From Puniceicoccales bacterium (GTDB lineage: Bacteria > Verrucomicrobiota > Verrucomicrobiia > Opitutales > UBA953), in assembly GCA_031289285.1 (NCBI GenBank), contig JAITPT010000232.1:1-33548 (forward strand): a stretch of DNA of 33,548 nucleotides, written 5' to 3'. Shown piece by piece: positions 4,801 through 32,105 of the stretch. A program made the translations under genes and the position numbers. The notes beneath the pieces were generated by a model that did no database searches, had not been told where the DNA came from, and saw nothing but the letters and a program-made list of their open reading frames with translations. Position 1 is the first letter of the stretch. Every line of letters starts with the position of its first letter.

Positions 4801-7800
4801 CCCGTGCCGTATTTGATAACTTTGCCTACGCCGTCAATACGTTCGGAGAAAACTTCTGGGTTTGCGTTCGGGTCGTCGGTGCGCAAATCGTTATCGGAGA
4901 AAATGCGTAGCGTTCCCTTTGACTGGACATCAATGGGGCGGTCGGAAAGGGCGTAAATAGTGGCGTCGAGCACACCTTCGGAGACGACAAACGCGCCGAC
5001 GAAATCGCCCTCATTGCTCCCGCGCAAGATGAGCGTTCCCGGGCCGGCCTTGTTGATTTTTCCGTTGCCTGAAATCGTTCCTTGGTAGGTCTTTACTTGT
5101 CCGGCGGCGGTCTTAAAAGTCAAATCTGCCTCGTCGGCGATAAGTTTTGAGCCGGGTTCGCCGGAGAGGTTGGAGAAAATCTGGCTATAACCGTTTAGGC
5201 GCACTGTGGCGTTTTGGGAGATTTCGAGAACATTGCTTTGTGCGAAAGCGTTTTTGACTTCGATAGAAAGCTCGCCTGCTTTGACATAAATAGAGCCGGT
5301 GAAGTCTTCCTGAGCGTGTGTGACAGCGAGCAGGCCCGGGCCAGCTTTTGAGATGTCGCCTGCGCCCACGAGATTTCCGCCGATGGCGGCGACTGTTTGC
5401 ACATCAATAGGAATATCGAACGTGAGCACTGCGCCAGCGGCGACGCTGTAGCTACTGATATTGGAGGGGACATTTGCGCGGGTTTTGCCGTCGGCGGTGA
5501 GTGCCTTTCCTGCGAAAATTAACTCTCCGGCGAGCACGGTTGTCGTGCCGGAATAATCGAGCCTGTGCGCGACATTGCCGCCCGTCTGGGAGGGGTCAAG
5601 TTCGCCGTAAAGAGTGAGTTTTCCTGCGCCGTCTTTGCCGACATTTCCGTAAGCGCCTTGGGAGTCGGAGTGCTCGCTGTAGCGGTCGGTGATGCTGCTG
5701 TAGAAAACGACATCGCCAGCGGTGTCGGGTATTTCAAAAACGACCGTTCCGGGGGAAGTTGCGAAGACATATTGACCGCCGCCGAAGTAGTCGAGCGGGT
5801 CGGTGTCGGAATAGACGATGTTGCCGAGGACAAAGTTGCCGAGGTTCTGGTGGACGGGCATGTAGAGCGCGCCCTCCTTGACGTAGGTTGTTCCTGTGAA
5901 CGAGTAAGAAGGCACGGCGTCGGCTGCGGCTTTTCCTGCTGGCAGCGAGGCGCTGCGTCCGTCCCAAATGGTTCTTTCACCTGTCACGGTGTTTATAAAG
6001 AATGCGTAAGGGATGCGCATCGGCCCTTGCCCAACCTTTGCGATGTTGCCGTCGTCGCCTGCTTTTGTGGGGTCTGGGTTGCCGCGAATGGGCGTGAGGA
6101 GGAGTGGGAACGGGTCGGCGGCGGTTCCGAGGTAGCTATCCTTTGTTGTGTCGGCGGGGTCTTGAGTTTCTTGGGGGACGATTGTTGAGCCGACGCGGAA
6201 CTCGATAAGAGCGGGGCGGCCTTCGGGCGGTGCGTCCACGAGTGCCCAGTTGGCGTCAAAAACTTTGCCGTGATAATTTGAGACATTGATTTCTCTTGCG
6301 ACGGGGAAGCTATCTGGGCGCATCCGCAGAACGCCCTCTGCGACGTTGACGGTTCCTGTGAAATCGGGGCTTGTGCCGGAGAAGGAAATGCGCTGGTCGC
6401 CGACTTTTTCGATGATACCGGAGCCGATGATTTCTCCGGCGTAGGAGAGTGCGTCGGCGTTGGAGAGACCGCGCCCAGAGTCGGCGTCAACGCCAGCCAT
6501 TTTGCCGAGTGTTTCTTTGAGGTAGTAGATTGAGGCGCCTTTTGAGAAGTCGCTCATCTCGGGATTTGCGGCGAGGCGCACCTCGTCGCCGGTGCGGGTG
6601 GTGTTGAAGAAGTAAGCGGCTTGGGCAGTCGGCACGCGGTTGGGTGCGCTGAGAAGCTCTTGGCTTAGCGCGAGAGTGTGTGAGGTGTCGGTGCCGAGGG
6701 TGAGCGTGGCGTCGCCCATTGTGATTTTAGAACCTTGCTCGCCGAAAAGTGCGCCGAACTTTTGTGGGAGGTAAGTGTGGGAGACGACGCCGTCTTCCGT
6801 GACGTTTTCGAGGATGTTCCCTTGTGTGTCGAGTGCGAGACTGAGGACGCTTGCGCCCTTGTAGAGAATGAGGCCGGAACTGTTTTTGGCGGTGCCGGTG
6901 AGCGTCTGTCCGGGGGTCTGGCCGTTGGGGTAATCGAGCGAGTTGCCGAGGACGAGGGTGGCGGTCGGGTTGGGCTGCTCGGCGGTTGGCGCGGCGAGCG
7001 GTTTGAGAATGGTCGCGCCGAAGTAAGTGTTCCACTCGGCGAGAGTCATCTGCGTCGAAGTGAGGACGATAACGCTGCCGACGCCGGTGATGCGCCCTGC
7101 GTAGATTGTCGGATTATACTGGCGCAGGGTGACGGTGCCGCGCCCCAAATCGAGGCGTGTGAGCGTGTCACCGGAGAAGTTGTTGAGGCGCTGGTCGGTG
7201 TCGGCGAAGGAGAGTGTGGTCTCGCGGTTGGCGGCGCCGCCGCCCATCAACCCTTGGCGCAAAGTGACGGAGCTGGCGTTGATGAGCGCGTCGTTGGGTG
7301 CTCTGGGGTCGCCGTCGCGAGCGGCGAGTAGAACGGTGACGCCGTTTGCGACGACGAAGGAGCCGTAGAAATTTGGCTGAGCGACGGACATCTGCATAAC
7401 GCCTGCCAAGTCGGGTGAACCGACTGCCAAGTTGCCGAACTGATTTGCCCCGCTGTCGTTGGTGGTGACGAGGAGCAGGCCGCCCGTGTCTCCCGTGAGC
7501 GTAGCGAGCAAGGTGCCGGAATTATTTTGCACGATGGTTAGTGAGCCAGCGTTGCCGATGTTGACGGTTCCCTTGCCGAGTGACTGCACGTTTGAGCCGA
7601 CGTGCCCCTCTTGGACGTCGAGAAGCCCCTTGAAGTTTTCGGGGTCGGAGTTGCCGGTGAAGAAGAGAGAGCCGGTTCCTATTTTTCGGAAGACGCTTCC
7701 CGTCTCTCCGATGATGTCTCCCGTGTAGTGTCCGTCGTGCCCCTGTTCCTGATTAACGGTGAGTGTGCTATCAACAATCATTCCCGTGCCGAGGTAATCG

Positions 7801-9179
7801 AGCGTGGAGAGATAGACGGCGGTGCCGGAGCCAGTGCCGATGGAGGCGAACAGCTCATCGGGCGAGCCTGCGAAGTTACAGTAGTTTTGGAAATTGCGGA
7901 TTGTCTGGTTGGTCTCGACGACGAGGACGGTTGCGTAATTTGTGTAGCTGACGCCGCTGGCGGCGGTCTGGTCAACGGAGCCGAGCACCATCGCTGCTGC
8001 GTCGCTTCTACCTGCGGGCGAGACCTCGGCGTAGGTGAGCGTCGGCGGCATATACACCTCGTAGAGGTCCACGCCGCCTGGGAGGGCGTTGCCTTGGTAA
8101 GTGCCCTGCGTGGCCTGCGGGCCTGCGAGTGTGACGGTCTGTGCGGTCTTGAGTGCGCCGCCGCCAGCGGAGGCGAGCTTGCTGACGCCGCCATTGAGGA
8201 TGACGACGCCCTCGAAGTCGCCGTCGTTTTTGACTTTGAAAGTTCCCATCCCCGTTTTGACGAACCAGCCGGAGCCGCGCAGGAAGCCGATGCCGCCCTC
8301 GTTGAAGGTGCCATTTGCGCCGTCGGGAGTGCCGTCGTAGGTTTCGTCTATGTGGACGACGATGCGGTAGGTGTCATCGAGGCCCGTCTGGAGTTCGGTG
8401 TTGTTGCCACGGGACTCGATGTTTTTGGCGATGTTGTAACGGAGGTTTGAATTGGGGACTTGGTAGGCGTCAACAATTGCGTCTTGGGGCAGATTGGCAG
8501 GGGTGTTTTGGAAAGAGATGGCGGCGGCGTCGGAGAGGACGTAACGCTGAACGCCGACGACGGAAGGCTCGTTTTCGTAATTAAGGCCGGAAGCCCAGAC
8601 CCACTGGTTGAGGTAGCCGGAGACGCGCAGCACGGCGTCGTCTTTGATTTCGACGGTGCCGGAGAAAGCTCCGTAGGTGTAGTTCTCGTTGGATTGAGTG
8701 CGCGTTGCCTCGCGGTTGAGCGTCGTGGTGTCGGTGATGATTGAGGGGAGCGGGTGGTCGGTGCTGTTAAAGACGGTGCTAAAAAAGTTACCAGCCAGCT
8801 CGCTTCGCCAGCCGCGATATTCGATGTAAGATTTGCCGACGATTGAGATGACGCCGAGTTTGTCTGGCTCGGTGTAGATGGTGCGGAATGGCAGGATGAC
8901 GTCGGGGCTGGCGGCGGAGAGCCAGCGCGAATAGGTGGTGACGGCCTCCTTGGTGTCTATGATGAGATGCACGGGGTTGCCGCCGTTGTTCGCGTCACTG
9001 GTGTTATATCTTATCGCGTAGTCGGAGTGGCCGTCGAACGCAGTGAGCGTGCTGTCCACATCGTAGATGACGTTGGTTGCGGCGCTGGCGGCACCCGCCG
9101 AGGCGAGAGTTGCGGCGGCGGCGAGTAGGGCTTTTGCCTTGGCGCGGCGCGTTAGGGGGAGAGAGGGACTTGTTTTCAT
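1860..9179 (-). CDS. Giant PATR-repeat autotransporter (2439 aa)
   Basis: A type V (autotransporter) outer-membrane protein: a signal peptide for Sec export, a very long repetitive passenger and a C-terminal beta-barrel. The track start at 9185 is a TTG; the ATG at 9179 (MKTSPSLPLTRRAKAKALLA) gives a better signal peptide, with a basic n-region, an Ala-rich core and a likely cut after ASA near residue 35. The passenger carries many repeats of the passenger-associated-transport (PATR) type, for example GSGIIEKVGDQRISFSGTSP, KAGPGTLILRGSNEGDFVGA and GVIKYGTGTVKLAW-like strings, which are known to form a beta-helix. Just before the barrel is NNLSPLGYGSLAAMPA and then RIEQRRYD. The barrel is about 295 residues and ends FRWRF, with the terminal Phe expected for Bam-dependent assembly. 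It follows the paralogue at 9248-18202 by 68 bp and is probably co-transcribed with it. Passenger function cannot be read. Base composition falls from about 65% GC at the 5' end to about 45% in the barrel. Confidence 0.93.
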   Translation of the reverse strand: MKTSPSLPLTRRAKAKALLAAAATLASAGAASAATNVIYDVDSTLTAFDGHSDYAIRYNTSDANNGGNPVHLIIDTKEAVTTYSRWLSAASPDVILPFRTIYTEPDKLGVISIVGKSYIEYRGWRSELAGNFFSTVFNSTDHPLPSIITDTTTLNREATRTQSNENYTYGAFSGTVEIKDDAVLRVSGYLNQWVWASGLNYENEPSVVGVQRYVLSDAAAISFQNTPANLPQDAIVDAYQVPNSNLRYNIAKNIESRGNNTELQTGLDDTYRIVVHIDETYDGTPDGANGTFNEGGIGFLRGSGWFVKTGMGTFKVKNDGDFEGVVILNGGVSKLASAGGGALKTAQTVTLAGPQATQGTYQGNALPGGVDLYEVYMPPTLTYAEVSPAGRSDAAAMVLGSVDQTAASGVSYTNYATVLVVETNQTIRNFQNYCNFAGSPDELFASIGTGSGTAVYLSTLDYLGTGMIVDSTLTVNQEQGHDGHYTGDIIGETGSVFRKIGTGSLFFTGNSDPENFKGLLDVQEGHVGSNVQSLGKGTVNIGNAGSLTIVQNNSGTLLATLTGDTGGLLLVTTNDSGANQFGNLAVGSPDLAGVMQMSVAQPNFYGSFVVANGVTVLLAARDGDPRAPNDALINASSVTLRQGLMGGGAANRETTLSFADTDQRLNNFSGDTLTRLDLGRGTVTLRQYNPTIYAGRITGVGSVIVLTSTQMTLAEWNTYFGATILKPLAAPTAEQPNPTATLVLGNSLDYPNGQTPGQTLTGTAKNSSGLILYKGASVLSLALDTQGNILENVTEDGVVSHTYLPQKFGALFGEQGSKITMGDATLTLGTDTSHTLALSQELLSAPNRVPTAQAAYFFNTTRTGDEVRLAANPEMSDFSKGASIYYLKETLGKMAGVDADSGRGLSNADALSYAGEIIGSGIIEKVGDQRISFSGTSPDFTGTVNVAEGVLRMRPDSFPVAREINVSNYHGKVFDANWALVDAPPEGRPALIEFRVGSTIVPQETQDPADTTKDSYLGTAADPFPLLLTPIRGNPDPTKAGDDGNIAKVGQGPMRIPYAFFINTVTGERTIWDGRSASLPAGKAAADAVPSYSFTGTTYVKEGALYMPVHQNLGNFVLGNIVYSDTDPLDYFGGGQYVFATSPGTVVFEIPDTAGDVVFYSSITDRYSEHSDSQGAYGNVGKDGAGKLTLYGELDPSQTGGNVAHRLDYSGTTTVLAGELIFAGKALTADGKTRANVPSNISSYSVAAGAVLTFDIPIDVQTVAAIGGNLVGAGDISKAGPGLLAVTHAQEDFTGSIYVKAGELSIEVKNAFAQSNVLEISQNATVRLNGYSQIFSNLSGEPGSKLIADEADLTFKTAAGQVKTYQGTISGNGKINKAGPGTLILRGSNEGDFVGAFVVSEGVLDATIYALSDRPIDVQSKGTLRIFSDNDLRTDDPNANPEVFSERIDGVGKVIKYGTGTVKLAWDASQPTDALKNEVIVEQGRLIVDTARNDNLLPRVDVWAGAQLQVNLQASEILYSNLVVGGGDLIVDGQQREFGLANDVRNSLVFNTVPDHKGVTYLQNGAILDVGPINELPGGIASDSTSALSFGVQRDAFYITQSKDSSFSGSFIGKADIYIKGDGILRYKGSDGAGNLGVSGASEGFEGTITLEGGSIEVGIANTKAIRFQDSKDGKVSTLYINVRDTEEAKSYYRGPLYGVENTAATSAENRYYSGNIVKTGTATLNTDRLQFLSGGDFIVRVLGVESGILRVTDYSHLARVESLQSYGDGRIVLAVPYEAAQAAQPTLVENLLRGDIPVLKEDVSSLTLENQPNYSGTYTVAAGAIQGSFTLGNRAAGNSANLIFQSGAALAPGTSASNIGTVTVAGNLDLQRDSVLKIEIGKDAGANFIWDKVLYGGSASLNGRIEINLRQDGAGGSAIPARGQKYVFLERLNPNDSLNSDVQIGEDTYLVSDDVAKANNLNYILVAGDFAKGTAYEKAIREEILAQNPNAAATIFVTQWELAKVPGYTPHKGLGSFIRNLDFIATDIPYGDFEKPDNSGVNQDYATRQKYLADVAEWQAQKAVYELGAHLNTAVAKDLTAIVNNLSPLGYGSLAAMPAAAASATIDQLHGRIEQRRYDNTQFAASQDLFPNRSWQFYLAGLGSYADLGSGTKDSTFKYQTFGGIVGADVQLSPRALFGVVADYTNGSATLHDNGGKIKMDEARGGAYFSYFFTEWFFVDAGVNAGWLSYDARRNTVPTTLTSLDAAKRIVEGAQSGANRASPEGWTAGGFLSFGTAFALMNHPVWQKLNLNPYINFEYNHYGFDAFTETGSASRLKVYGYDFDSFRTKVGTGIMWLADGNGRGFWGNMDSSLRLNLDISFTSEILDGDSEISSRFEVLGTGKTKVSAKSLPDELIQIAPSITYTFDASKSVFLGYRYETSFAGAVYHNFNVGFRWRF

Positions 9180-9247
9180 TGGCAAGCGGTGTTCGGCGGT
9201 GATTGTTTTTTTGTGGGAGTGAAAAGTGTTTCGGGAGGCGCGGCGAT

Positions 9248-20296: not shown

Positions 20297-21610
20297 TCAG
20301 CCGCGCACCTGCCCGTCGCCGAGGATTTGGTATTTATAAGAGGTCAACTCCTCCAGACCCATCGGCCCTCTGGCGTGAAGTTTGCCCGTGCTGATGCCAA
20401 TCTCCGCACCAAACCCAAACTCGCCGCCGTCGGTGAAACGTGTGCTGGCGTTCCAATAGACCGCCGCGCTGTCAACGCTGCCAAGAAACTTTTCCGCCTC
20501 GGCGGTGTTGGCGGTGATAATCGCGTCGGAGTGTTTGGAGCTATGGGCGGCGATGTGCGCGAGGGCGGCGGCGGTGTCGGCGACGACGCGGAGGTTCAAA
20601 ACGAGGTCGAGATACTCGGTGTCCCACTCGGGCGGCGGCGCGGCGGCAAGCTCAGGCACAAGGGCGCGGGCAGCAGCATCGGCGCGGACTTCGACATTTT
20701 TCCGGCGAAGCGCAGCGGCAATCTGCGGCACAAATTGCGGCGCGACGGCGGCGTCAACGAGCAAGGTTTCCATCGCGTTGCAAACCCCCGGACGCTGGCA
20801 CTTGGCGTTGAGGACGATTTCCTCCGCCATCGCGAGGTCGGCGTCGCGGTGAACAAAAACGTGGCAGATGCCGTTGTAGTGCTTGATGACGGGCATACGC
20901 GCATGGCGAACAACCGTCTCGACGAGGCCGCGCCCGCCACGCGGGATGAGCAGGTCGAGCAGGTCGTCCATGCGGCAAAGCAGCGGGATGGCGTCGCGGT
21001 CGGTGGTCGGGGCGAGCGAGACGGCACCAGCAAAACCGTGGCGGGCGAGCGCGGTGTCCATGACGGCAGCGATTGCCGTGTTGGAGCGGAAAGCCTCGCT
21101 GCCGCCGCGCAGCAAAACCGCGTTGCCCGCTTTGAGACAGAGAACCGCAGCGTCGGAGGTGACGTTCGGGCGCGATTCGTAGATGATGCCGATGAGGCCG
21201 ATGGGCACACGGCGTTTGCGGATGAGCAGGCCGTTGGGACGCCGCCATTCGCGGAGAAGTTCGCCAACGGGGTCGGGCAATTCGGCGACTTTCCGCACGC
21301 CGTCCGCCATCGCACGGATGCGGTCGGGCGTGAGGCGGAGGCGGTCGAGCAGCGCGGCAGAAACGCCCCGCGCAGCGGCGGCTTCGAGGTCGAGGGCGTT
21401 GGCGGCGAGAATTGTGCTGGCAGGAGGAGAAGCAGCAGCGAGGGCGGCATCGGCGGCGAGGGCGGTGGCGATGTCGAGCAGGGCGGCGTTTTTTGCGGCG
21501 GTGCTGGCGTCGGCGAGTGCGCGGGCGGCGTCGCGGGCACGGATAGCGAGGGCGCGAAGGCTCGCGTCGAGAGCGGGTTTTTCAGCTGCTATGGAATCGG
21601 CGTCGGGCAT
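20297..21610 (-). CDS. proA: Gamma-glutamyl phosphate reductase (glutamate-5-semialdehyde dehydrogenase), ProA
   Basis: ProA catalyses the NADPH-dependent reduction of gamma-glutamyl phosphate to glutamate-5-semialdehyde, the second step of proline synthesis, in the cytoplasm. The start is the ATG at 21610 (MPDADSIAAEKPALD); the 743-aa ORF in the track extends far upstream only by reading the antisense of the GH16 gene. The 437-aa product is close to the usual length of about 420. Seen: the nucleotide-binding region RVPIGLIGIIYESRPNVTSD (about 134-153), LCLKAGNAVLLRGGSEAFRS (157-176), IPRGGRGLVE, and the active-site segment KCQRPGVCNAMETLL with the catalytic Cys near 277. The C terminus has GEFGFGAEIGISTGKLHARG, which is typical of the family. 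proB is not in the window. The neighbouring PEGA gene lies 105 bp downstream on the same strand without an obvious pathway link. Confidence 0.96.
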   Translation of the reverse strand: MPDADSIAAEKPALDASLRALAIRARDAARALADASTAAKNAALLDIATALAADAALAAASPPASTILAANALDLEAAAARGVSAALLDRLRLTPDRIRAMADGVRKVAELPDPVGELLREWRRPNGLLIRKRRVPIGLIGIIYESRPNVTSDAAVLCLKAGNAVLLRGGSEAFRSNTAIAAVMDTALARHGFAGAVSLAPTTDRDAIPLLCRMDDLLDLLIPRGGRGLVETVVRHARMPVIKHYNGICHVFVHRDADLAMAEEIVLNAKCQRPGVCNAMETLLVDAAVAPQFVPQIAAALRRKNVEVRADAAARALVPELAAAPPPEWDTEYLDLVLNLRVVADTAAALAHIAAHSSKHSDAIITANTAEAEKFLGSVDSAAVYWNASTRFTDGGEFGFGAEIGISTGKLHARGPMGLEELTSYKYQILGDGQVRG

Positions 21611-21722
21611 GTCGGGTGGGCGGCGGTGGTAGGCGGTGGGTGGTAGGCGGTGGGTGGCAGGTGGCGGGCGGCAGGTGGTGGGCGGTGGGCGGCGGGTGGG
21701 TGGCGGCAGGTGGTGGGCGGGT
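21611..21722. other. G-rich low-complexity tract upstream of proA
   Basis: The plus strand is a run of short units such as gtgggtggtaggcgg and caggtggcgggcgg, with very few C or A. The many GGG/GG runs could form G-quadruplexes. It occupies the start-proximal side of the divergent interval between proA and the GH16 gene, where both promoters must lie. No clear -35/-10 pair could be assigned to either gene. Confidence 0.6.
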
Positions 21723-21838
21723 GAAGAAGTTTTTTTCGTGGGCGGCGTCAATGACGAAGGCGCACTGGGCGAAGAGGCGGCGTGGTTTGGGCGGATATTT
21801 CGCAACGTTTGCGCGGTGCGGCTGTCCATGCGTTTTCC

Positions 21839-22729
21839 ATGAAAAATCTTTTCCTTTCCGCCCTCTTGTTTGCTGGCACTGCCGCCCTCGCCGCCGCCGC
21901 GCCAAACACGCCCGCCATTGACAAAACAACACCTGCCGCTGTCGCTGCCGCAAAAAAAGACGGCTGGCAGCTTATCTGGAGCGAGGAGTTTAACGCCGCC
22001 GACCCGCGCCCAAACCCTGCCAAATGGACTTACGAAGTGGGTAATTCCATTCGCAACAACGAGGCGCAGTTTTACACCAATGACCGCCGCGAGAACGTCC
22101 GCGTCGAAAAAGGCGTCCTCGTCATCGAAGCGCGGAAGGAAAAATACGACAAAGCGCAGTTCACTTCGGGCAGTGTGACGACTGCTGGCGGGCGACTCTC
22201 GATGCGTTATGGGCGCATGGAGATCCGCGCAAAAATCCCCAACGGGCGTGGTGTCTGGCCTGCCCTCTGGATGCTCGGCACTAACATCGGCAGCACTCGC
22301 ACGGAGGACGGCACACGCATCCCCGGGGTCGGTTGGCCGCGTTGTGGCGAGATAGACATCATGGAGTATGTCGGGCACATCCCGGGCACTGTCCACGCCA
22401 CGATGCACACAGGCAACAAGGAGGCGGCAAACCCGAAAAAGACGCATTTCTCGCGTGGCGGCAGTATCAAGAAAGAGACTCCGTGGGACGGTTTTCATCT
22501 CTACATTCTCGAATGGTCGCCGGAGCAAATCGAAGTTTTCTACGATACGAAAAAAATCCTCACTTACCGCCGCGACCTATCGCGTCCCGACCACTGGCCG
22601 TTTGACAAGCCTCACTATCTAATAATGAACATTGCCATTGGTGGTTCTTGGGGTGGTGCCAAGGGCATTGACGACGCTGCTTTCCCCTGCCGCATGGAAG
22701 TAGATTACGTCCGCGTCTGGAAAAAGTGA
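21839..22729 (+). CDS. Secreted glycoside hydrolase family 16 (beta-glucanase/laminarinase-like)
   Basis: A 296-aa enzyme expected to cleave beta-1,3 or beta-1,3/1,4 glucans (or another GH16 substrate such as carrageenan or agar) outside the cytoplasm. The start ATG at 21839 (MKNLFLSALLFAGTAALAAA) gives a clean Sec signal peptide of about 20 residues; the track start at 21782 adds 19 polar residues and is rejected. The mature domain opens with WQLIWSEEFN, the usual GH16 beginning. It contains the hallmark EIDIMEYVGH, with nucleophile Glu near 171, Asp near 173 and acid/base Glu near 176. It ends in a strand MEVDYVRVWKK, the normal GH16 end, so this is a stand-alone catalytic domain with no carbohydrate-binding module. 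GRGVWPALWMLG is the common GH16 strand before the active site. It is transcribed away from proA and runs into a repeat-rich gap. Fine substrate specificity cannot be assigned. Confidence 0.95.
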   Translation: MKNLFLSALLFAGTAALAAAAPNTPAIDKTTPAAVAAAKKDGWQLIWSEEFNAADPRPNPAKWTYEVGNSIRNNEAQFYTNDRRENVRVEKGVLVIEARKEKYDKAQFTSGSVTTAGGRLSMRYGRMEIRAKIPNGRGVWPALWMLGTNIGSTRTEDGTRIPGVGWPRCGEIDIMEYVGHIPGTVHATMHTGNKEAANPKKTHFSRGGSIKKETPWDGFHLYILEWSPEQIEVFYDTKKILTYRRDLSRPDHWPFDKPHYLIMNIAIGGSWGGAKGIDDAAFPCRMEVDYVRVWKK

Positions 22730-23047: not shown

Positions 23048-23311
23048 GGGAAAAGTGCCTGTCCCTTTTTGACGACGATACGCTGGCAACGTCTCCCGTT
23101 AGCAGTTAGCATGTGTCCCATAGCACAGATGCGCTGCATGTAGGGCGTGAGTGCGCCCTTAACGCAGATTGCCAACTCGTTTCCGATGCAAGCGAAAAAG
23201 GGTCTGGCACTTTATTGCACTTTGCCCTCCAACTGTCGTTTTTAGATTTGGACAGGATGAACAGGATAGACAGGATTTTGATGAGTATTGATATGTTTTC
23301 TTCGTTTTTTT
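23048..23311. repeat. 265-bp intergenic repeat, copy 1
   Basis: Begins gggaaaagtgcctgtccctt, passes through acgcagattgccaactcgtt and ggtctggcactttattgcac, and ends in a T-run after gatatgttttcttcg. Nearly identical to copy 2. No ORF is conserved in frame between copies beyond what the nucleotide identity forces. Confidence 0.9.
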
Positions 23312-23368
23312 GGCACAGTTGTCCCATAGCATTGAGAGTATTTGGAATGGTGTCTGGTAGCTGCATCT

Positions 23369-23606
23369 AACCCCAACGGGGTTTCCCAACAAAGCCCAGG
23401 GGTGGCGAGCGAAGCGAGACTACCCTGGGTAATGCCCACACACACACCACAACCCCAAAGGGGTTGCCCAACGGCCTTGCAAGGGGCTGATGTCCGCGAG
23501 GTTGGGAAACCCCGTTGGGGTTGTGGGAGGGGTGTCCACCTAACCCAGGGTAGGCGCTCGTTCCTCGCGCCAACCCTGGGCTTTGTTGGGAAACCCCGTT
23601 GGGGTT
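23369..23606. repeat. Nested inverted-repeat element with perfect 33-bp arms
   Basis: The left arm (23369-23401, starting aaccccaacggggtttccca) is the exact reverse complement of the right arm (23574-23606). Inside, ctaccctgggt (23420-23430) pairs perfectly with acccagggtag (23543-23553), and further caacccc/ggggttg blocks repeat. The 238-bp element contains no convincing ORF. It looks like a miniature, non-autonomous mobile element or a cruciform/structured RNA locus, lying between copies 1 and 2 of the 265-bp repeat. Confidence 0.9.
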
Positions 23607-23639
23607 GTGAAGCGACGTAGCCCGTAAAGCAGGAAAAGG

Positions 23640-23904
23640 GGGAAAAGTGCCTGTCCCTTTTTGACGACGATACGCAGGCAACGTCTCCCGTTAGCAGTTA
23701 GCATGTGTCCCATAGCACAGATGTGCTGCATGTAGGGCGTGAGTGCGCCCTTAACGCAGATTGCCAACTCGTTTCCGATGCAAGCGAAAAAGGGTCTGGC
23801 ACTTTATTGCACTCTACCCCTCCAACTGTCGCTTTTAGATTTGGACAGGATGAACAGGATAGACAGGATTTTGCTGAGTATTGATATGTTTTCTTCGTTT
23901 TTTT
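23640..23904. repeat. 265-bp intergenic repeat, copy 2
   Basis: Matches copy 1 along its full length with scattered single-base changes (for example gcgctg to gtgctg, and ttttgatg to ttttgctg). It continues into a further inverted repeat shared in theme with its own tail. Confidence 0.9.
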
Positions 23905-23948
23905 GAGATATTTTCGGACGTCATCCTGTTAATCCTGTCCATCCTGTC
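23844..23948. repeat. Inverted repeat of gacagg motifs at the end of copy 2
   Basis: gacaggatgaacaggataga (23844 onward, 24 bp in all) pairs with cctgttaatcctgtccatcc (23925-23948) with three mismatches in 24. The loop of about 57 bp contains the T-rich tail of the 265-bp repeat. Copy 1 has the left arm only. Confidence 0.8.
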
Positions 23949-24024
23949 TAAAAAACACGAGCGTCAGAAAGGGAAAGGCACCTGTCACCTTTTGAAATGA
24001 GAAAAGTGTCTGTCCCTTTTTAGT

Positions 24025-24195
24025 GGGAAAAGTGCCTGTCCCTTTTTGACGACGATACGCAGGCAACGTCTCCTGTTAGCAGTTGGCATGTGCCCGTAGC
24101 ACAGATATGCGCATGTAGGGCGTGAGTGCGCCCTTAACGCAGATTGTCAAGTGGCTTCCGATGCAAGCGAAAAAGTGTCTGGCACTTTATTGCAC
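24025..24195. repeat. 265-bp intergenic repeat, copy 3 (truncated, diverged)
   Basis: Shares the head and middle of copies 1 and 2 but stops after cactttattgcac, which is immediately duplicated (tcatggcactttattgcact). It has more differences (ttggcatgtgcccgtagcac), so it is older or less constrained. It ends some 25 bp before the tRNA-like sequence. Confidence 0.85.
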
Positions 24196-24221
24196 TCATG
24201 GCACTTTATTGCACTTAAGGG

Positions 24222-24277: not shown

Positions 24278-25102
24278 TTATACCTCTCCAAGGCGGATAC
24301 GCACAAGCAGGTCGTTTAAGGCGGTGCGAGTGGTGTCGGAAGGAGCTTCAGGGAGAAGGCTGGTGTCGTGAGCAAGTTGAAGCTCAGCACGCAGACGTTG
24401 ATACTCGTTCTCGTGAAAAATGATGTCTGCGTCAACGAGAGTGGATTGCTCAGCTCCCGCTAATTTTCGAGCAATTAAATCGGGAAGCCACGATAGACGA
24501 AAAGTCTCGTTGAGCGTGACAAGATTTGCCTCAATAATACCCGTGCGTAACAAGAAAATCCCCGTTAACAACACACGATAAACATAAAGCAACGGTTTGA
24601 CACGACGCGGAGTTTCTTTGAGAAACAGATTCCACTGATTTTCCGCAAACCCAAAATAGTGATGCGAGTGATGTCGCGTAATACAACCCACAACTATGCG
24701 TTTTAATTCGGTGTGCGCCGGAGTCGTCGCAACGACGAGCGGCGAATAAACTTGTTCAAGAACGTAACCGTTTTTCTTGAGAAGGAGTGCAAAAAACTTG
24801 CGCACATCGTGGCTAACGATGTCCATTTCCAACCCTTCAATAATGCGCGAATCCTCTACGGTTTCGTCGGCGATGCCCATTCCCAATACGTTGCGCAAGT
24901 GAAGGATGTGTGCGCCGCGCAAATCGAAGTCGGAGTCTGGCGACGGAAATCCGTAGAGGTGTGCGCCACTGATTGTTGCAAAGAGAAGCGGGTAGGGCTG
25001 GCCAGCGACGATGCGCTGGAGACGCGGGTCAATATGCGGCATAACTGTAGAAACAGGCGGCACGGTTTCGACCGTAGTAGAGATGGCGGAAGTAGTTTTC
25101 AT
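24278..25102 (-). CDS. RlaP/YcgL-type nucleotidyltransferase (pol-beta superfamily), 274 aa
   Basis: A predicted nucleotidyltransferase of the DNA polymerase beta superfamily, YcgL/COG3541 type, which the literature on RNA repair calls RlaP (RNA-ligase-associated pol-beta). Seen: the active-site strand ISGAHLYGFPSPDSDFDLRG (about residues 45-64), with the GA(S)-x9-DxD arrangement whose two Asp bind metal. LEMDIVSHDVRKFFALLLKKNG and YVLEQVYSPLVV, both typical of the family, follow, then a helical C-terminal half. The ATG at 25102 is the natural start; a Thr/Ser/Val-rich N-terminal tail of about 25 residues precedes the fold. It follows the second family member by 52 bp on the same strand, probably as an operon. 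The expected partners, RtcB ligase or a release factor, are not in this window. The RNA substrate is unknown; a role in RNA end repair is inference. Confidence 0.85.
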   Translation of the reverse strand: MKTTSAISTTVETVPPVSTVMPHIDPRLQRIVAGQPYPLLFATISGAHLYGFPSPDSDFDLRGAHILHLRNVLGMGIADETVEDSRIIEGLEMDIVSHDVRKFFALLLKKNGYVLEQVYSPLVVATTPAHTELKRIVVGCITRHHSHHYFGFAENQWNLFLKETPRRVKPLLYVYRVLLTGIFLLRTGIIEANLVTLNETFRLSWLPDLIARKLAGAEQSTLVDADIIFHENEYQRLRAELQLAHDTSLLPEAPSDTTRTALNDLLVRIRLGEV

Positions 25103-25140: not shown

Positions 25141-25234
25141 CCTTAAAACGGCAGTTAATGCGGGCGGTTTTGCACAATCTTTTGAACGTCTGCGGCTTGC
25201 GCTTCCCGCTGAACTGCCGTTTTTAGGTTTAAGG
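25141..25234. repeat. Dispersed repeat, copy 2 (with both inverted arms), overlapping the end of a gene
   Basis: ccttaaaacggcagtt (25141-25156) and aactgccgtttttaggttta (within 25212-25234) are inverted arms. The interior also pairs gcggg with cccgc. The first 70 bp match 1660-1729 with few mismatches. The element supplies the last 20-odd codons and the stop codon of the 337-aa nucleotidyltransferase gene. Confidence 0.85.
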
Positions 25235-26168
25235 ATTTTTTCCAGCGGGCTTCGATTAGAAACTGATTTGCGGCGGCGTAATCGGGACGTTCGGGCAAGG
25301 AAGTGCTGGCGAGTGCTTGTTCAAAATCGAGATGTAGTTGGCGCCGCCAAGCGTCCACCTCTGTCCAAGAAATATCGCCGTGTTTTATTGCGAGTAATTT
25401 TTCTCGCAAGGTTGGCGACGCCACCGCTACCGGCATGTGTCCGTCGCGCAAAGTTGCGGCACCGGTAAGCAACAGACGAACTAAGTGCATTGCGTGTTTC
25501 CAGCGGATTTCGCCTTGATTGCGTCGGTCTTGTTCCAATTTTTTGAACTGGCTTAGCGCATAACCGTTGAAGGTTTGAAAAATCATTTTTGACAGAAACT
25601 TTTCGCGAATAGCGAGTAACTCTTTTGCTATCGGCGCACACTTTTCGACGAGTGGCGAATAGAGACATTCGAGAATGTTGGGGTTCGCTTTGAGTGCCAT
25701 AATTACGAACTTCTGCAATTCCCAATAACAGGCTTGTCCGGCATTGTCCTCGAATTGTTCGGGTGCGCCGTAAAGCGACCAGTGCATCTCGGCGGGCGCG
25801 AGATAAATGCCGCGCAAATCGGTATCGGAAGTTTCCGTGTCGAGACCATAAGCGCGAGAGCCAGTTACGCAGCGATAAATAATGTGTTCATCAAGGCAAA
25901 ACTCCGAAACGGTTGAGGCGTCCGCCGCGCCGAGTCGTTCTTTGAACTCCTTCAAAACTTCCAACGCCTCGGCGGGAAAGACTGTCTCAAAACCATCTGG
26001 GAAGCGCACATGGTAAAGCGACTCGTGACCAGCGGGCGTGCGGGTGATGACGCCCACCGCCCCACTTGGGTGAACGCGCAAGCCATTCGCGCCAAGAATG
26101 GGGGCATTGACGACTACTTGTGTGCCTGCGTGAAGGCGGGCGGCGGCGGGTGCGGGCATGTTGGACAT
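25155..26168 (-). CDS. Nucleotidyltransferase of the YcgL/RlaP type with N-terminal SH3-like domain, 337 aa
   Basis: A second pol-beta-superfamily nucleotidyltransferase, clearly distinct from its neighbour. Residues about 10-72 look like a small KOW/SH3-like beta domain (GTQVVVNAPILGANGLRVHP, then GVITRTPAGHESLYHVRFPD). The catalytic strand is VTGSRAYGLDTETSDTDLRG (about 100-119), with the full GS-x9-DxD signature. NPNILECLYSPLVEKCAPIA and a helical region with RWKHAMHLVRLLLTGAATLR follow. ATG 26168 is the first start; there is no Shine-Dalgarno. The final residues, NLKTAVQREAQAADVQKIVQ and on to the stop, are encoded by the dispersed repeat at 25141-25234, so the native C terminus has probably been replaced or extended. 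Upstream of the 274-aa gene by 52 bp, likely one transcript. Substrate unknown; RNA is inferred from family context. Confidence 0.85.
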   Translation of the reverse strand: MSNMPAPAAARLHAGTQVVVNAPILGANGLRVHPSGAVGVITRTPAGHESLYHVRFPDGFETVFPAEALEVLKEFKERLGAADASTVSEFCLDEHIIYRCVTGSRAYGLDTETSDTDLRGIYLAPAEMHWSLYGAPEQFEDNAGQACYWELQKFVIMALKANPNILECLYSPLVEKCAPIAKELLAIREKFLSKMIFQTFNGYALSQFKKLEQDRRNQGEIRWKHAMHLVRLLLTGAATLRDGHMPVAVASPTLREKLLAIKHGDISWTEVDAWRRQLHLDFEQALASTSLPERPDYAAANQFLIEARWKKSLNLKTAVQREAQAADVQKIVQNRPH

Positions 26169-26318: not shown

Positions 26319-29300
26319 CTATTTGGTGGTTTTGAAGTCGCCTTTGCCGTCGAGGGTGCCGTCGGAGATGGAGCCTTTGTTGGAAATGGCGTCGTAACTG
26401 CCACGCAAGACGTAAGAGCCAGACAAACCACTCGTGAAGACAAACTCAAAAACACCCGTTTCAACACGGACAAAAGAGTCATCCCCATAAACAACACTGT
26501 AGACAAGCAAGGCAGTGTTGGGACCCGTGCGGATGTAGTTGTAGTCGCCATTGGGCAACTTCAAACCCGCTAAGAGCGTGAGGACACTGTCGTCAGTTTG
26601 AACAGCAGCCGCCACAGCAGAGTCGGCAAGAACACCGTTCAATTTGATTTTTGTGCCAGCAGGCAAACTCACAGGAGCGTTGCCCGAAACAGTAGTGCTC
26701 GTGCTCGCAGCAGCAGCCGCGCCCGTCGGCGCAAGAGAGAACGTGCCCGTCTTGGCCGATGCGCCCGTAGCAGCCGTAGCACCCGCACCGCCCTGCCCTG
26801 CCGACACGGCCTGCGCGACGGCCTGAGGCGCGGCGGCGATTTGGCCGACATCCGGCGTGACGGCGGTGACTCGCACCGTTACCTCGGAAGACTTGGCGGG
26901 ACGGCCAGCAGGATTGTCAACGATGACATAGTAAATGCCGCCCGTCGCCTGAGTCGCACTGGTGAAGGTCAAGGTCGGTGTTTTCCCGTCGGGCAACTTT
27001 GTGCCGTTGCGATACCACTGGTAAGAGAGCGGGCCGGTGCCAGAAGCGGCGACGGTCAACACGCCAGCTTCGCCTTCCCTCAAATCGAGAGAGACGGGGT
27101 GGCGGTCAATCGCGGGCGCGTGAATGACAGAGACGGCGACCTCGTTACTTGTCGCGCTGCCGACAGCATTCGTGATGCGCACGTAAAACTTGGTGTTGAC
27201 GGAAACGGTCGTCTCATAGACGCGGCTGTTGTTGTCGGTGCCGGGGATTTTGACGCCGTCTTTATACCACTCGAAGGTGAATGGTGCGTCGCCCGTGGCG
27301 GTCGCGGTCAAGGTCACGCGGTTGCTGGCGGGGTCGCCTTGGACGACGACGACATTTCCCGCGCTCGTGGCGAGCGTGACAGCGGGGCCGGAGGCAGAGC
27401 GCAAAGTGGCGATTTCCTGCGTGACAGAACCCGAACCGTTGGAGACGACGACGGTGTATTTGCCAGTTTCCGCCGCGAAGTAAGTGGGGCCAGTTGCGCC
27501 GGCAATCGTCACGCCGTCGCGTTTCCACTCGAAGGAGAGCATGGAGCCGGAGGTCTCGACGCTAAGTTGTGCGCCTCTGCCCGGGTCGGCGATTTCGCCT
27601 TTTGGCAGGGAGAGGATTTTGGGCGGCGCGATGGCGATGAGTGCTGCCGGGCCGAGCGTGAAGCGGTTGGAGCCGCTGACGACGCTGACGGTGTAGTGGC
27701 CGAGCGAGGCGGGCGTGATAGTCGGCAGCGTGAGTGCCGCGCCAGTCGCGCCGTCAATCGCCACGCCGTTCAAACTCCATTGGTAGGAAGGCGCGGGGTC
27801 GCCCGTGACATCCACAGACAACGTGAACGGCCTGCCCAGCCCGCAACCAATCGTCCGTGGCAAATCTTTGTTGACGACGGGTTTTTCGGAAAATCTCACC
27901 TCGAAGGCGACGGGAGTGCTCACCACGGAGCCGACGGTGTTCTCGACGCTGACGCGATACTCGCCGTTGTTGGCGGCGGAGACGCTGTCGAAAATGAGGT
28001 CGGCGCGTGTGCCGTCGCGGACGTTCGACCAAGAGTCGCCCGAACGTTTTTGCCATTGGTAAGTGAGTGCGGCGGTGTCGGTGGCGGCGACGCCGACGGA
28101 GAGCACCAGCTTGCTGCCTGCCCAGACAACCTCTGGCGCGGCGGGTTGGCGGATGATTTCGGGGACGCTGTTCGCCGCGTGGTGGACGTTCAGCGACACC
28201 GTCGAAGACTGCGTTGTCCCCGCGACATTGCTCACGAGCACATCGTAGGAACCGCTCTGTGTCTCGCGCACACCGGAGAGGTGCAGGGTCGCGCCGGTCG
28301 CGCCGGTGAGCGGCACACCGTCGCGCCGCCATTGGTAAGAGAGGGTGGAAGGCTCGCCAGTTATCACCGAGGCCTCGACGGAGAACTCGGCGTCGCCGCC
28401 CTCAAACGGGCTGGCGGAACGCGGCTGGCGGGTGATGACGGGGAGGCCGTAGAGCTTGAGAACGGCCTCGCTGACGATTGTCCCTGCGCTGTTGCTAATC
28501 GTAACTGTGTAGGTGCCCGCGTGGTCGGCGGTGACGTTCTCAATCGTGTGCGAGGAGAAAGTCGCGCCCGGAAGGTTTGCGCCGTTGAACTGCCATTGGA
28601 AAGTCGGCGCGGGTTCGCCACTGGCGGAGACTGCAAAAGTGACCGCGCCGCCAGCGACGACGGTCTGGCTCTGCGGGTCGCGAAGTATCGCGGGCGGCGT
28701 CTGGTTTTTGGCGGCTTTGATGGTGAAGACGGCGGAAACCTCGTCGCTGGGCAACGCGCCAAGCTGGTTGCGGTAGGCGCGGGCGCGGATGGTGACCACG
28801 ATGTCGCTGCTTGTCTCGTTGACGAGCGGGAGCGCGGTGTTGCCGTAAGTGGGCGAATACTGGGTGACCGCCGAGCCGTCTTGCGTGAAATGGACGGTGG
28901 CTTCGCTCTCGATGTTTTTGAACTCGACCCGCACGGAGCCGGTATAGACGCCGCCGTTGGGCGAGATGACGGGCGCGGGGACGGGCGTGCCGCTGCCGGA
29001 GACGCCGCCCGAAGGCTGCCAGCGGTCGGTGCGTGTGCCGTCGCCGAGTTGGCCGTAGGTGTTCGCGCCGAGGCTTTCCACGGAGTCGGCGGAGGTGACG
29101 TAGAGTGTGTGGGCGGCACCGGCGGCGATGGCTTTGACGCCAGCGGCGACGACGCGCACGGGTGCGTTGCCGCCTTCGACGGCGAGCGTGTTGGGAAGAA
29201 TGGCGGGGTCGTTGCCGAGTTGGCCGCGCTCGTTTGCGCCCAAGCCGACGAGGGAGCCGTCGCTCAGGAGCAAGAGGGCGTGTCTCTCGCCAGCGGCGAT

Positions 29301-32105
29301 GGCGGTGACGGCGAGGCCGCCGGGCGTCCTGACTCGTAGCGGAGTGGCGAGGCGTCGCGTGTCTTGGGCGGTGCCGACCTGCCCGCTGTCGTTGGAGCCG
29401 GTGGCATAGACGCTGCCGGCCTCGGTCAAAATCAGGCTGAAGTTACGCCCTGCTGCGACGGCTTTCACCTTGCCGAGGGCGGCGGAAACTTGTGCGCCGC
29501 CTGCGCCAAAGTCGGTGACGGTGGCAATCTTGATTGGGGAGTTGCGGTCGGCGGTGTCGCCGAGGCCGAGCTGCCCGTCGTCGTTGCGTCCGGTCACCCA
29601 GACTGTCCCATCTCCGCGGACGAACAAGGAGTGGAATGTTCCTGCGGCGGCGGTGAGGAAGTATTCGCCGACGAGCGTGGGCTGGAGCACGTAGTCAACG
29701 ATGGTGGAGGTGGTGCCAGCGGGCACGGGTCTGCCGTCGCCGCTGAAACCGAGGCCGAGTTGGCCGTAGTTGTTGCGCCCGACTGCCCAGAACTTGCCAT
29801 CGAAGGTGGTGTAGAAGGAGTGGTAGCCGCCCGCGAAAGCGAGGAGCACCTCGGAGGCGATTTCTTCTGGCGCGGGGCGGTCGGTGGTGTCTTTTGCGCC
29901 GAGTTGGCCGTAGTTGTTGCGGCCAGCGGCCCAGAGTTTGCTATCGCGTGCCACGTAGAGTGAGTGGTCGCCGGAGGCACTCACGGCGGAGATGCCGGAG
30001 CCGATGATGACGGGGGTGTTGACGGTGGTGGTGGTGCCGTTGCCGAGTTGGCCGTAGCGGTTCCAGCCGGAGGCGCGAAGCTCGCTGGCTTCGAGGCTGC
30101 CGGTGAGGAAGAGCGTGTGGTTGCTGCCGCCGGAGATGCGTGTGCCGTATTCGGCGCGGATGCTGTCGGGGGTGCGGACGTTGAAGTCGGCGGAGGTGAC
30201 TTCGCTGGGCAGGAAGTCTATGTCAAACCCTCGCACCTTGACCGTCGCGGGGTGCGCGAGGCGAGGCGGGTTTTGCGGGTCGTAGAGGGCGGAGGTTTCG
30301 GTGGGCGTGGAGCCGTCGAGCGTGTAGCGCAGGAAGGGGCGGGCGGAGCCAGCGGCGAGGCCGGGCGTGTTAGAAGAGAAGATGAGCGTGACGCTGTTGA
30401 CGTAGAGGCCGCCGCCCGGAGTGATGACGGGGCGCGTCACGGGCACGGGGTTGATTTTCACGAGCACGATGCGTTCTTCGCTTGTCTGGTTGTCGGCGCG
30501 CCAGAGGCGGACTTTCACGTTGGCTGTGCGCGTGAGCACAAACGAGCCGGTGTAGATGGGCGAGTCTTCGGTGACTTCGGAGTTATCCACGGTGTAGCGG
30601 ATGATGTCGCCCGGGCGGGCTGCGCCGGAGTCGGGGTGGAGCGTGAGGGAGATGGTCACGGGGCCGTTGTAGGTCTGGCCGTCGCCGCCTGTTTGCGCGG
30701 TGCCTTCGATGTTGACGACTGGGCGCTCGGCGACGGGCAACACGAGGATTGTGTATTCGGCGGAGGTTTGCGGGGCGCGGTTATACTTGGGCAAGAAGGG
30801 GAGCGCTTTGATGACGGTGAGGCCGGTGCGAACAATCTCGAGTGGGCGGTCGTCGCGGTAGATGGAAGAAGTCTCGGTGACATCGGAGCCGTCGAGCGTG
30901 TAGCGGATGACGGCACCGTCGGTCGCGCAGCCGAGCAAGACTTTCACGGAGCCTTTGTATTCGCCGGAGTCGGGCGCGAAGGTGACGGGGGCGAGCGTCC
31001 TGCCGTAGTCAATGTTGATGTTGGCGGAGGCGATAAGGCTGGGCAGGTAGTCTGCTCTGAAAGCGCGGGCGCGGAGGACGGTCGGGTATTTGATGAGGAT
31101 TGGCTCGGTGGGGCGGAACACCAGCGAGGTCTCGTCGGGGTCGGTGCCGTCGGTGGTGTAGAAGATTGTGGCATCGGGGTCGGAGCAGCTGATTGTGACT
31201 ACCTGCTCATCGGGGAAGACGCCGCTAACGGGGTCGAAAACGGGCGTGGGTATGCCGGGCTTGTAGGGGCGGTAGGCGGCGACAAGCGGAATGGTCGCGT
31301 TGAAGACTTGTGCGTTGTTGGCGGGGTAATTGATTTCGGGGGTGCTGGGGTCTGCATCGTTAGTGCCGGTGGGGACGCCGTTGCTCTTCACGTCGGGGTT
31401 GGAGTAGTAGAGAATTGACGTCCCGTTGTAAGACATGATGGTGCCCTGCCCATTTGGTAGGTGGTAGCCGAAGGGAGTGCCGAAGGCACCCGCTGCAAAG
31501 GAGGCTTGCTGACGACCGTCCATAGTCGCAAGCATCGTGCCCCAATCGTGGCAACCGCCCAAGTTGTGCCCAAGCTCGTGGGTAAAAGAGATTCCGTATG
31601 CGACGCTGTAAGCGACACCAGAGTTTCCTGCCGACTCCACGAGAAGCCACGCCAATCCGGCAGTGCCGTTGTCGTAGTCCGGCTTTGAGCGAATGAAGTT
31701 GACGACGTCGGCACCGATTTCCTCGCGCCATTGATGCACTTCGTCCATCTCGCCGTTTGGGTCGCCGTCTGACTTCGAGGCACCGAGCATGTTGAGGTCG
31801 CTTTCAAAATTCACCTCTGTGTAGTTAACCTTTCGGACGGCGGCGCGGCGAATGGCACCAGTGATTAGGCTGTTTTCAAATGCGGTGTTGGTGCGGGCGA
31901 CGATGAGGTTGGCCTGCGCCTTCACGCCGTCGGCCCCGCCGTAGCGGTTTTCGGTTTCCTGCCCATAGACGAAGAGGACATCTATGGTTTGCGCGTCGGT
32001 GGCCTTGGCGTGGGCGTCGGCGGGCTGCGCGAGGAAGGCGGCAGCAGTCGCGACAACAGCAGCGGCGGCGGAGAATGTATTTTTTAGGAAACGAGGGAGT
32101 TTCAT
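26319..32105 (-). CDS. Secreted modular metzincin metalloprotease with RCC1 propeller and Ig-like domains (1928 aa)
   Basis: An exported zinc protease. The signal peptide spans about 1-31 (FSAAAAVVATAAAFLAQPADA). The catalytic domain starts almost at once (about 40-280) and carries HELGHNLGGCHD (176-187), the reprolysin-type zinc motif, and a Met-turn TIMSYNGTS with Met near 224. Then come about four chitobiase-C-terminal/Fn3-associated domains (288-645, marked by YTTDGTDPDETS and RYTLDGS-TETS), seven RCC1 units (650-1030, each with an N-YGQLGxG-like turn), another chitobiase-type domain (about 1045-1130) and about seven Ig-like domains (1137-1750, with GTYTVTISNSAG-type endings). An Ala/Gly/Thr linker and a 100-residue C-terminal domain finish it. 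There is no propeptide between signal peptide and catalytic domain, and no sorting signal at the end. It starts 106 bp after the gene for the propeptide-like membrane protein. The modules probably bind polysaccharide or protein surfaces; the substrate is unknown. Confidence 0.92.
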   Translation of the reverse strand: MKLPRFLKNTFSAAAAVVATAAAFLAQPADAHAKATDAQTIDVLFVYGQETENRYGGADGVKAQANLIVARTNTAFENSLITGAIRRAAVRKVNYTEVNFESDLNMLGASKSDGDPNGEMDEVHQWREEIGADVVNFIRSKPDYDNGTAGLAWLLVESAGNSGVAYSVAYGISFTHELGHNLGGCHDWGTMLATMDGRQQASFAAGAFGTPFGYHLPNGQGTIMSYNGTSILYYSNPDVKSNGVPTGTNDADPSTPEINYPANNAQVFNATIPLVAAYRPYKPGIPTPVFDPVSGVFPDEQVVTISCSDPDATIFYTTDGTDPDETSLVFRPTEPILIKYPTVLRARAFRADYLPSLIASANINIDYGRTLAPVTFAPDSGEYKGSVKVLLGCATDGAVIRYTLDGSDVTETSSIYRDDRPLEIVRTGLTVIKALPFLPKYNRAPQTSAEYTILVLPVAERPVVNIEGTAQTGGDGQTYNGPVTISLTLHPDSGAARPGDIIRYTVDNSEVTEDSPIYTGSFVLTRTANVKVRLWRADNQTSEERIVLVKINPVPVTRPVITPGGGLYVNSVTLIFSSNTPGLAAGSARPFLRYTLDGSTPTETSALYDPQNPPRLAHPATVKVRGFDIDFLPSEVTSADFNVRTPDSIRAEYGTRISGGSNHTLFLTGSLEASELRASGWNRYGQLGNGTTTTVNTPVIIGSGISAVSASGDHSLYVARDSKLWAAGRNNYGQLGAKDTTDRPAPEEIASEVLLAFAGGYHSFYTTFDGKFWAVGRNNYGQLGLGFSGDGRPVPAGTTSTIVDYVLQPTLVGEYFLTAAAGTFHSLFVRGDGTVWVTGRNDDGQLGLGDTADRNSPIKIATVTDFGAGGAQVSAALGKVKAVAAGRNFSLILTEAGSVYATGSNDSGQVGTAQDTRRLATPLRVRTPGGLAVTAIAAGERHALLLLSDGSLVGLGANERGQLGNDPAILPNTLAVEGGNAPVRVVAAGVKAIAAGAAHTLYVTSADSVESLGANTYGQLGDGTRTDRWQPSGGVSGSGTPVPAPVISPNGGVYTGSVRVEFKNIESEATVHFTQDGSAVTQYSPTYGNTALPLVNETSSDIVVTIRARAYRNQLGALPSDEVSAVFTIKAAKNQTPPAILRDPQSQTVVAGGAVTFAVSASGEPAPTFQWQFNGANLPGATFSSHTIENVTADHAGTYTVTISNSAGTIVSEAVLKLYGLPVITRQPRSASPFEGGDAEFSVEASVITGEPSTLSYQWRRDGVPLTGATGATLHLSGVRETQSGSYDVLVSNVAGTTQSSTVSLNVHHAANSVPEIIRQPAAPEVVWAGSKLVLSVGVAATDTAALTYQWQKRSGDSWSNVRDGTRADLIFDSVSAANNGEYRVSVENTVGSVVSTPVAFEVRFSEKPVVNKDLPRTIGCGLGRPFTLSVDVTGDPAPSYQWSLNGVAIDGATGAALTLPTITPASLGHYTVSVVSGSNRFTLGPAALIAIAPPKILSLPKGEIADPGRGAQLSVETSGSMLSFEWKRDGVTIAGATGPTYFAAETGKYTVVVSNGSGSVTQEIATLRSASGPAVTLATSAGNVVVVQGDPASNRVTLTATATGDAPFTFEWYKDGVKIPGTDNNSRVYETTVSVNTKFYVRITNAVGSATSNEVAVSVIHAPAIDRHPVSLDLREGEAGVLTVAASGTGPLSYQWYRNGTKLPDGKTPTLTFTSATQATGGIYYVIVDNPAGRPAKSSEVTVRVTAVTPDVGQIAAAPQAVAQAVSAGQGGAGATAATGASAKTGTFSLAPTGAAAAASTSTTVSGNAPVSLPAGTKIKLNGVLADSAVAAAVQTDDSVLTLLAGLKLPNGDYNYIRTGPNTALLVYSVVYGDDSFVRVETGVFEFVFTSGLSGSYVLRGSYDAISNKGSISDGTLDGKGDFKTTK

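Follow-up and report, generated by a model that had tools for sequence, protein, structure and literature searches.

The nested palindrome at positions 23369-23606 of the window (the whole 33,548-nucleotide stretch of DNA that was analysed) is probably, with a likelihood that we put at roughly 0.8, a gene-less, non-autonomous copy of a hairpin-ended mobile element of the REPtron/TIRtron-like kind, as judged by sequence comparison. Gene-bearing copies in other genomes have the order module(-), gene, module(+), and the palindrome has the order module(-), short centre, module(+). Because modules elsewhere bracket a transposase gene in this same layout, the window copy is best read as the gene-less form.

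Structure of the Window Palindrome

The palindrome lies in a repeat-rich gap with ORFs on either side (20297-22528 and 24278-25102). Its two 33-bp arms (23369-23401 and 23574-23606) match each other perfectly in inverted orientation and are separated by 172 bp; wider arms (23369-23418/23557-23606) have 90% complementarity and an inner arm pair (23405-23472/23501-23568) has 75%. Units resembling AACCCCAACGGGGTTTCCCAAC are repeated at the outer and inner positions. In single-strand folding, the + strand as DNA reaches z = -13.5 and the - strand as RNA reaches z = -13.7, with 0 of 200 shuffled sequences equally stable in either case. The arm coordinates, the nested pairs and the fold z of about -13.5 thus establish that the nested palindrome with perfect 33-bp arms described in the initial annotation is real, and that both strands are far more stable than shuffled sequences. 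No Rfam family matches the palindrome, and an ORF running antisense across it matches no Pfam family.

Each half is matched by the covariance model R1, and the palindrome is therefore a head-to-head pair of a module of about 100 nt, in which a hairpin is followed by ACCCAGGGTAG-stemloop-CAACCCTGGGCT and then by another hairpin (Table 1). In the right core hairpin, the inner stem has GTAG at its foot (23550-23553), directly 5' of GCGC/GCGC.

Table 1. Parts of the palindrome and of the MITE that encloses it, in window coordinates
Feature	Position	Strand	Basis
Nested palindrome, doublet of two head-to-head three-hairpin modules	23369..23606		arms, folding, dispersed copies
Right module	23506..23608	+	covariance model R1, 73.9 bits, E 2.8e-14
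Left module	23367..23467	-	R1 match, 67.4 bits, E 9.7e-13
Core hairpin B, right, ACCCAGGGTAG-GCGC..GCGC-CAACCCTGGGCT	23543..23582	+	core common to >100 stretches of other genomes
Core hairpin B, left	23393..23430	-	sequence
Outer hairpin HP3, right, AACCCCGTTGGGGTT	23592..23606	+	sequence and cross-genome alignment
Outer hairpin HP3, left	23369..23383	-	sequence
Inner hairpin HP1, right	23508..23522	+	sequence and cross-genome alignment
Inner hairpin HP1, left, AACCCCAAAGGGGTT	23451..23465	-	sequence
Enclosing MITE, left terminal inverted repeat CACAGTTGTCCCATAGC	23314..23330	+	41 own-genome sites vs 2 for the reversed control (<=3 mismatches)
Enclosing MITE, left inner part	23331..23368	+	common to L003, L004, L005, L011, L014, L016, L019
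MITE right inner part, remnant; remainder including right terminal repeat missing	23607..23636	+	copy comparison

Elsewhere in the window, the - strand encodes a 2441-aa autotransporter with PATR repeats (1860-9185), two adjacent RlaP genes of the RNA repair DNA polymerase beta family (24278-25102 and 25155-26168), and a 1928-aa protein with reprolysin-like peptidase, chitobiase C-terminal-like, RCC1 and immunoglobulin domains (26319-32105).

Copies in the Host Genome and the Enclosing MITE

The host assembly is a repeat-rich, fragmented MAG (2.7 Mb, 326 contigs, 75% complete). A 242-bp palindrome query has 75 matches in it, comprising full copies, halves cut at the centre and weak matches. 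Owing to the symmetry of the palindrome, most full copies are matched on both strands. The R1 module occurs 33 times in this genome. The palindrome is thus not the single-copy sequence that the initial annotation had allowed for, but is present as many dispersed full and partial copies.

The likeness of the two outer arms is 0.815 within a copy, as compared with 0.812 between the left arm of one copy and the right arm of another. Since likeness within copies is not above that between copies, the perfect 33 bp reflect a conserved consensus and not a fresh duplication. The earlier suggestion that perfect arms imply recent insertion is therefore unsupported, and recent duplication or gene conversion of the arms is rejected, as arm identity within copies is not in excess. 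The same figures weigh against an assembly artefact or a recent inverted duplication at a contig repeat, an origin to which the fragmented, repeat-rich assembly and one copy with perfectly inverted flanks would be congenial. In addition, the copies are diverged, their flanks differ, and the same head-to-head doublet layout is found in other genomes, single-chromosome records among them, with modules present in CP030884 and NZ_CP036263. These observations exclude the artefact at a collapsed repeat against which the initial annotation had cautioned, and make any origin of this type extremely improbable.

Several copies have particular settings. At L020:1350-1700 the palindrome flanks are perfectly inverted over about 75 bp or more, possibly through a large inverted duplication or an assembly fold-back. 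In three copies (L014, L016, L017) the palindrome halves are split at the centre by a sequence starting with AATCCTAAGAAC and ending with TTTTTAGGATAAT, one repeat being inserted in another, and in three others (L006, L008, L027) a second repeat setting surrounds the palindrome, with flanks TAGTGTCTC ... GAGACACTA.

Many copies in the host genome sit within a MITE of about 405 bp. Flanks starting with CACAGTTGTCCCATAGC are common to at least 8 copies, and the intact ones end in its reverse complement. Among 7 two-ended copies, target duplications at the exact MITE ends agree in 9/9, 9/9 and 8/9 bases, so that the target-site duplications sought at the ends are present in sister copies. These 405-bp units resemble MITEs, that is, non-autonomous DDE transposons, in their 17-bp terminal repeats, 9-bp target duplications and lack of a gene; they differ in that a transposase with such ends was not found, the host assembly having no DDE_Tnp_1 match. 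Terminal inverted repeats, target duplication, multiple copies and absence of genes are all found for the sister copies, and the window copy has the left end only. One MITE copy of 145 bp (C18:26374-26518) is without the palindrome and has a perfect AATTTGTTT duplication; it may be a deletion product instead of the ancestral form.

In the window, the left end of the MITE is kept (23314) and its right part is gone after about 23636, the position at which a GGGAAAAGTGCCTGTCCC repeat unit begins. The window copy is a MITE that has lost its right end against the neighbouring tandem repeat. A 176-266-bp repeat (GGGAAAAGTGCCTGTCCCTTTTTGACGACGATACG...) is present in three copies that are 93-97% alike (23048-23312, 23640-23905 and 24022-24197), and the palindrome-bearing MITE sits exactly between two of them.

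The palindrome might be a mere passenger that arose once in the CACAGTTGTCCC MITE and owes its many copies to a DDE-type transposase, with the Y1 enzyme uninvolved here. The MITE flanks shared by at least 8 copies, the clear terminal repeats with 9-bp target duplications, and a search of the host assembly in which no cognate Y1 transposase was found are in line with this explanation, but copies at L009, L020, L021, L023/L025, L024 and L026 lie in unrelated flanks, some in tandem arrays, and the module is widespread without the CACAGTTGTCCC MITE. Moreover, the MITE terminal repeat has no site in 8 genomes of the same genus at up to 2 mismatches, yet 4 of these genomes carry the module. As an account of the palindrome as a whole, the passenger origin is thus unlikely; several doublet copies have nevertheless probably multiplied as passengers of the MITE.

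Modules and Transposase Genes in Other Genomes

In one-per-species genomes, the core pattern ACCCAGGGTAG-N5-30-CAACCCTGGGCT matches more than 116 stretches (a lower bound) in Verrucomicrobiota, Planctomycetota, Hydrogenedentota, Prevotella, Acidobacteria, Nitrospinota and others, whereas the exact 26-base palindrome pattern has no match in contigs of other genomes. In most stretches listed, HP1 is followed after about 20 nt by the core, and the core after about 9 nt by HP3. Among the matches listed, HP1 is at the expected position in 174 of 194 modules (94 expected with shuffled flanks) and HP3 in 179 of 194 (50 expected). In 77% of cells the inner stem of the core, which was not selected for pairing, is base-paired, as against 44% after arm shuffling, and RNAalifold gives 17 consensus pairs, 11 of them with double changes, the counts for HP1 and HP3 depending in part on row choice. 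GTAG at the stem foot recurs in this cross-phylum set, whose search pattern included it. Among the matches listed, 53 of the 73 module pairs less than 1 kb apart are head-to-head, mostly at distances of 95-130 nt, and most of 24 module pairs shown, from different contigs, fold as a long palindrome.

The initial annotation had also proposed selection on a long hairpin; this is borne out in part, in that the local small hairpins covary across phyla. A functional regulatory hairpin under selection (terminator, mRNA stabiliser or structured RNA) would account for the strong covariation of the small stems and for the great stability of the folds on both strands. However, the symmetrical structure favours neither strand and lacks an Rfam match, its copy number is patchy and very uneven between genomes of one genus, and bracketing of a transposase gene is not expected of a regulator. 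Regulation is thus quite an improbable general explanation, although some palindrome copies may have acquired a regulatory role.

Modules adjoin several genes for HUH/Y1 (IS200-like) transposases of about 150 aa, in which the HUH and tyrosine residues are conserved. In a set of 54 transposase genes that includes loci known beforehand as flanked, 22 have R1 modules on each side at distances of up to 150 nt, mostly 60 nt or less, and 19 of these 22 have a reversed (-) module on the left and a forward (+) module on the right, whichever strand the gene is on; 3 close pairs depart from the -/+ rule. Where loci were picked by transposase score alone (L242-L261), 9 of 20 are bracketed, all 9 in the -/+ layout. 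No R1 module is nearby in 24 of the 54, which may reflect the sensitivity of the R1 model or a different end type.

Seven module-flanked transposases fall on one side of a single tree branch (1 change, 0/500 shuffles); the support of this branch is 44, and that of a wider clade including two unflanked members is 98. Y1_Tnp genes are present in 16/16 module-bearing genomes and in 5/14 control genomes. Modules and transposase also occur together (both/module only/transposase only/neither) in 57 relatives (7/6/4/40, p 0.0014) and in 115 members of the phylum (8/3/5/99, p 3e-7), both p-values being without correction for shared ancestry. In one genome (G150), a gene-bearing copy and gene-less dimers are both present, alike in layout and with little sequence in common. 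The outer flanks of the gene-less doublets in this genome (L262-L269) are conserved and have inverted ends near GTGCAAAATA, as if these doublets again sat inside a larger element. An integron attC site, considered on account of RYYYAAC-like strings, was dropped in view of the transposase bracketing.

The earlier proposal of a miniature element is thus borne out: the palindrome is multi-copy, the MITE around it has terminal repeats and 9-bp target duplications, and its modules, paired head-to-head, elsewhere bracket a transposase gene.

No transposase of the module-associated clade was found in the 75% complete host assembly. This assembly has 18 Y1_Tnp matches at 18 places (for example L028, L029 and L031), which belong to another class, judged by the one tested. 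RAYT-type genes are usually single copy; several of the host Y1_Tnp proteins (about 340-450 aa) are nearly identical to one another, and some of the genes adjoin CCTAAAAACGGCAGTT repeats (L030, L034). The multi-copy host RAYTs were rejected as mobilisers, since the module is absent near 8 of 8 loci examined.

Relation to Known Elements and Proposed Origin

The nearest descriptions, as far as the available parts of the two papers extend, are those of TIRtrons (PMC3733652) and class 3 TnpA_Y1 (PMC6006769). TIRtrons (TIRYT) consist of a Y1 tyrosine transposase gene with long inverted repeats at short distance; dimers or clusters of the repeats are present at other sites as well, and a GGGGWSAS motif is described (Di Nocera et al., 2013, PMC3733652, available portion). 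Acidobacteria and S. maltophilia are among the bacteria for which they are reported, and R. baltica is described as rich in the genes and flanking repeats (same portion of PMC3733652). The elements described here are alike in that inverted copies of one repeat flank a Y1 gene in other genomes (19/22), the window copy being gene-less, and in that gene-less dimers are found elsewhere in the genome, as in G150, with the same layout and diverged sequence. The three-hairpin module, the core sequence and the spread over many phyla are absent from the portion of PMC3733652 that was available.

For class 3 TnpA_Y1, the available part of the source gives the 5' foot as CnGA (Quentin et al., 2018, PMC6006769), which differs from GTAG in the core here; the CnGA-like foot that precedes HP3 (CGGA, for instance) is a resemblance only. 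Protein length and a Y...Q motif are alike, the comparison being by description in that part of the text.

REPINs/BIMEs with RAYT (TnpA_REP) are likewise inverted doublets of palindromic units in many dispersed copies, with GTAG at the 5' foot of the stem, as at 23550-23553, and a Y1-domain transposase flanked by the same units (here in other genomes). They differ in having a single hairpin of 21-65 nt instead of a three-hairpin module of about 100 nt; the bracketing transposase scores just above the NCBIfam IS200 cut-off and not as a REP-associated transposase; and a cognate module-flanked RAYT was not found in the host genome (75% complete; 8 RAYT loci without a module). In non-autonomous IS200/IS605 elements the end hairpins have the same orientation and there is no target duplication, whereas the end modules here are inverted. 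Part of the module system may already be illustrated in PMC3733652 or PMC6006769, and the claim to novelty is therefore modest; the literature matches listed for the core sequence were all unrelated work on eukaryotes and viruses.

Each half of the palindrome corresponds to one end module (HP1, spacer of about 20 nt, GTAG core hairpin, spacer of about 9 nt, HP3), and the window copy has no gene, with only the two ends and a short centre left. A Y1 transposase supplied in trans, now or in the past, would recognise the small hairpins on single-stranded DNA, cut and rejoin them, and so spread the doublet, as TnpA_REP is thought to do for REP doublets. We infer from the layout and from published work on TnpA_REP that the transposase moves the palindrome. 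Because the cognate gene was not found in the host genome, any movement today may rely on the MITE, or movement may have stopped.

More tentatively, and with slightly less than even chances, the modules may define a trans-phylum class of HUH/Y1 elements with inverted three-hairpin ends of about 100 nt, distinct from IS200/IS605 and from ordinary REPs, in which gene-less palindromes far outnumber gene-bearing copies and also ride in unrelated DDE-type MITEs. As gene-less forms are also carried in such MITEs, one sequence would then be subject to two transposition chemistries.

The palindrome is an abundant, apparently undescribed intergenic sequence of PVC bacteria and several other phyla that is tied to a specific transposase clade, and the bracketing layout provides a cheap computational test. 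The module would offer a defined substrate for poorly known Y1 proteins between the IS200 and REP systems. Many repeats that confuse annotation in these genomes would be explained, and two kinds of mobile DNA would be seen nested in one another.
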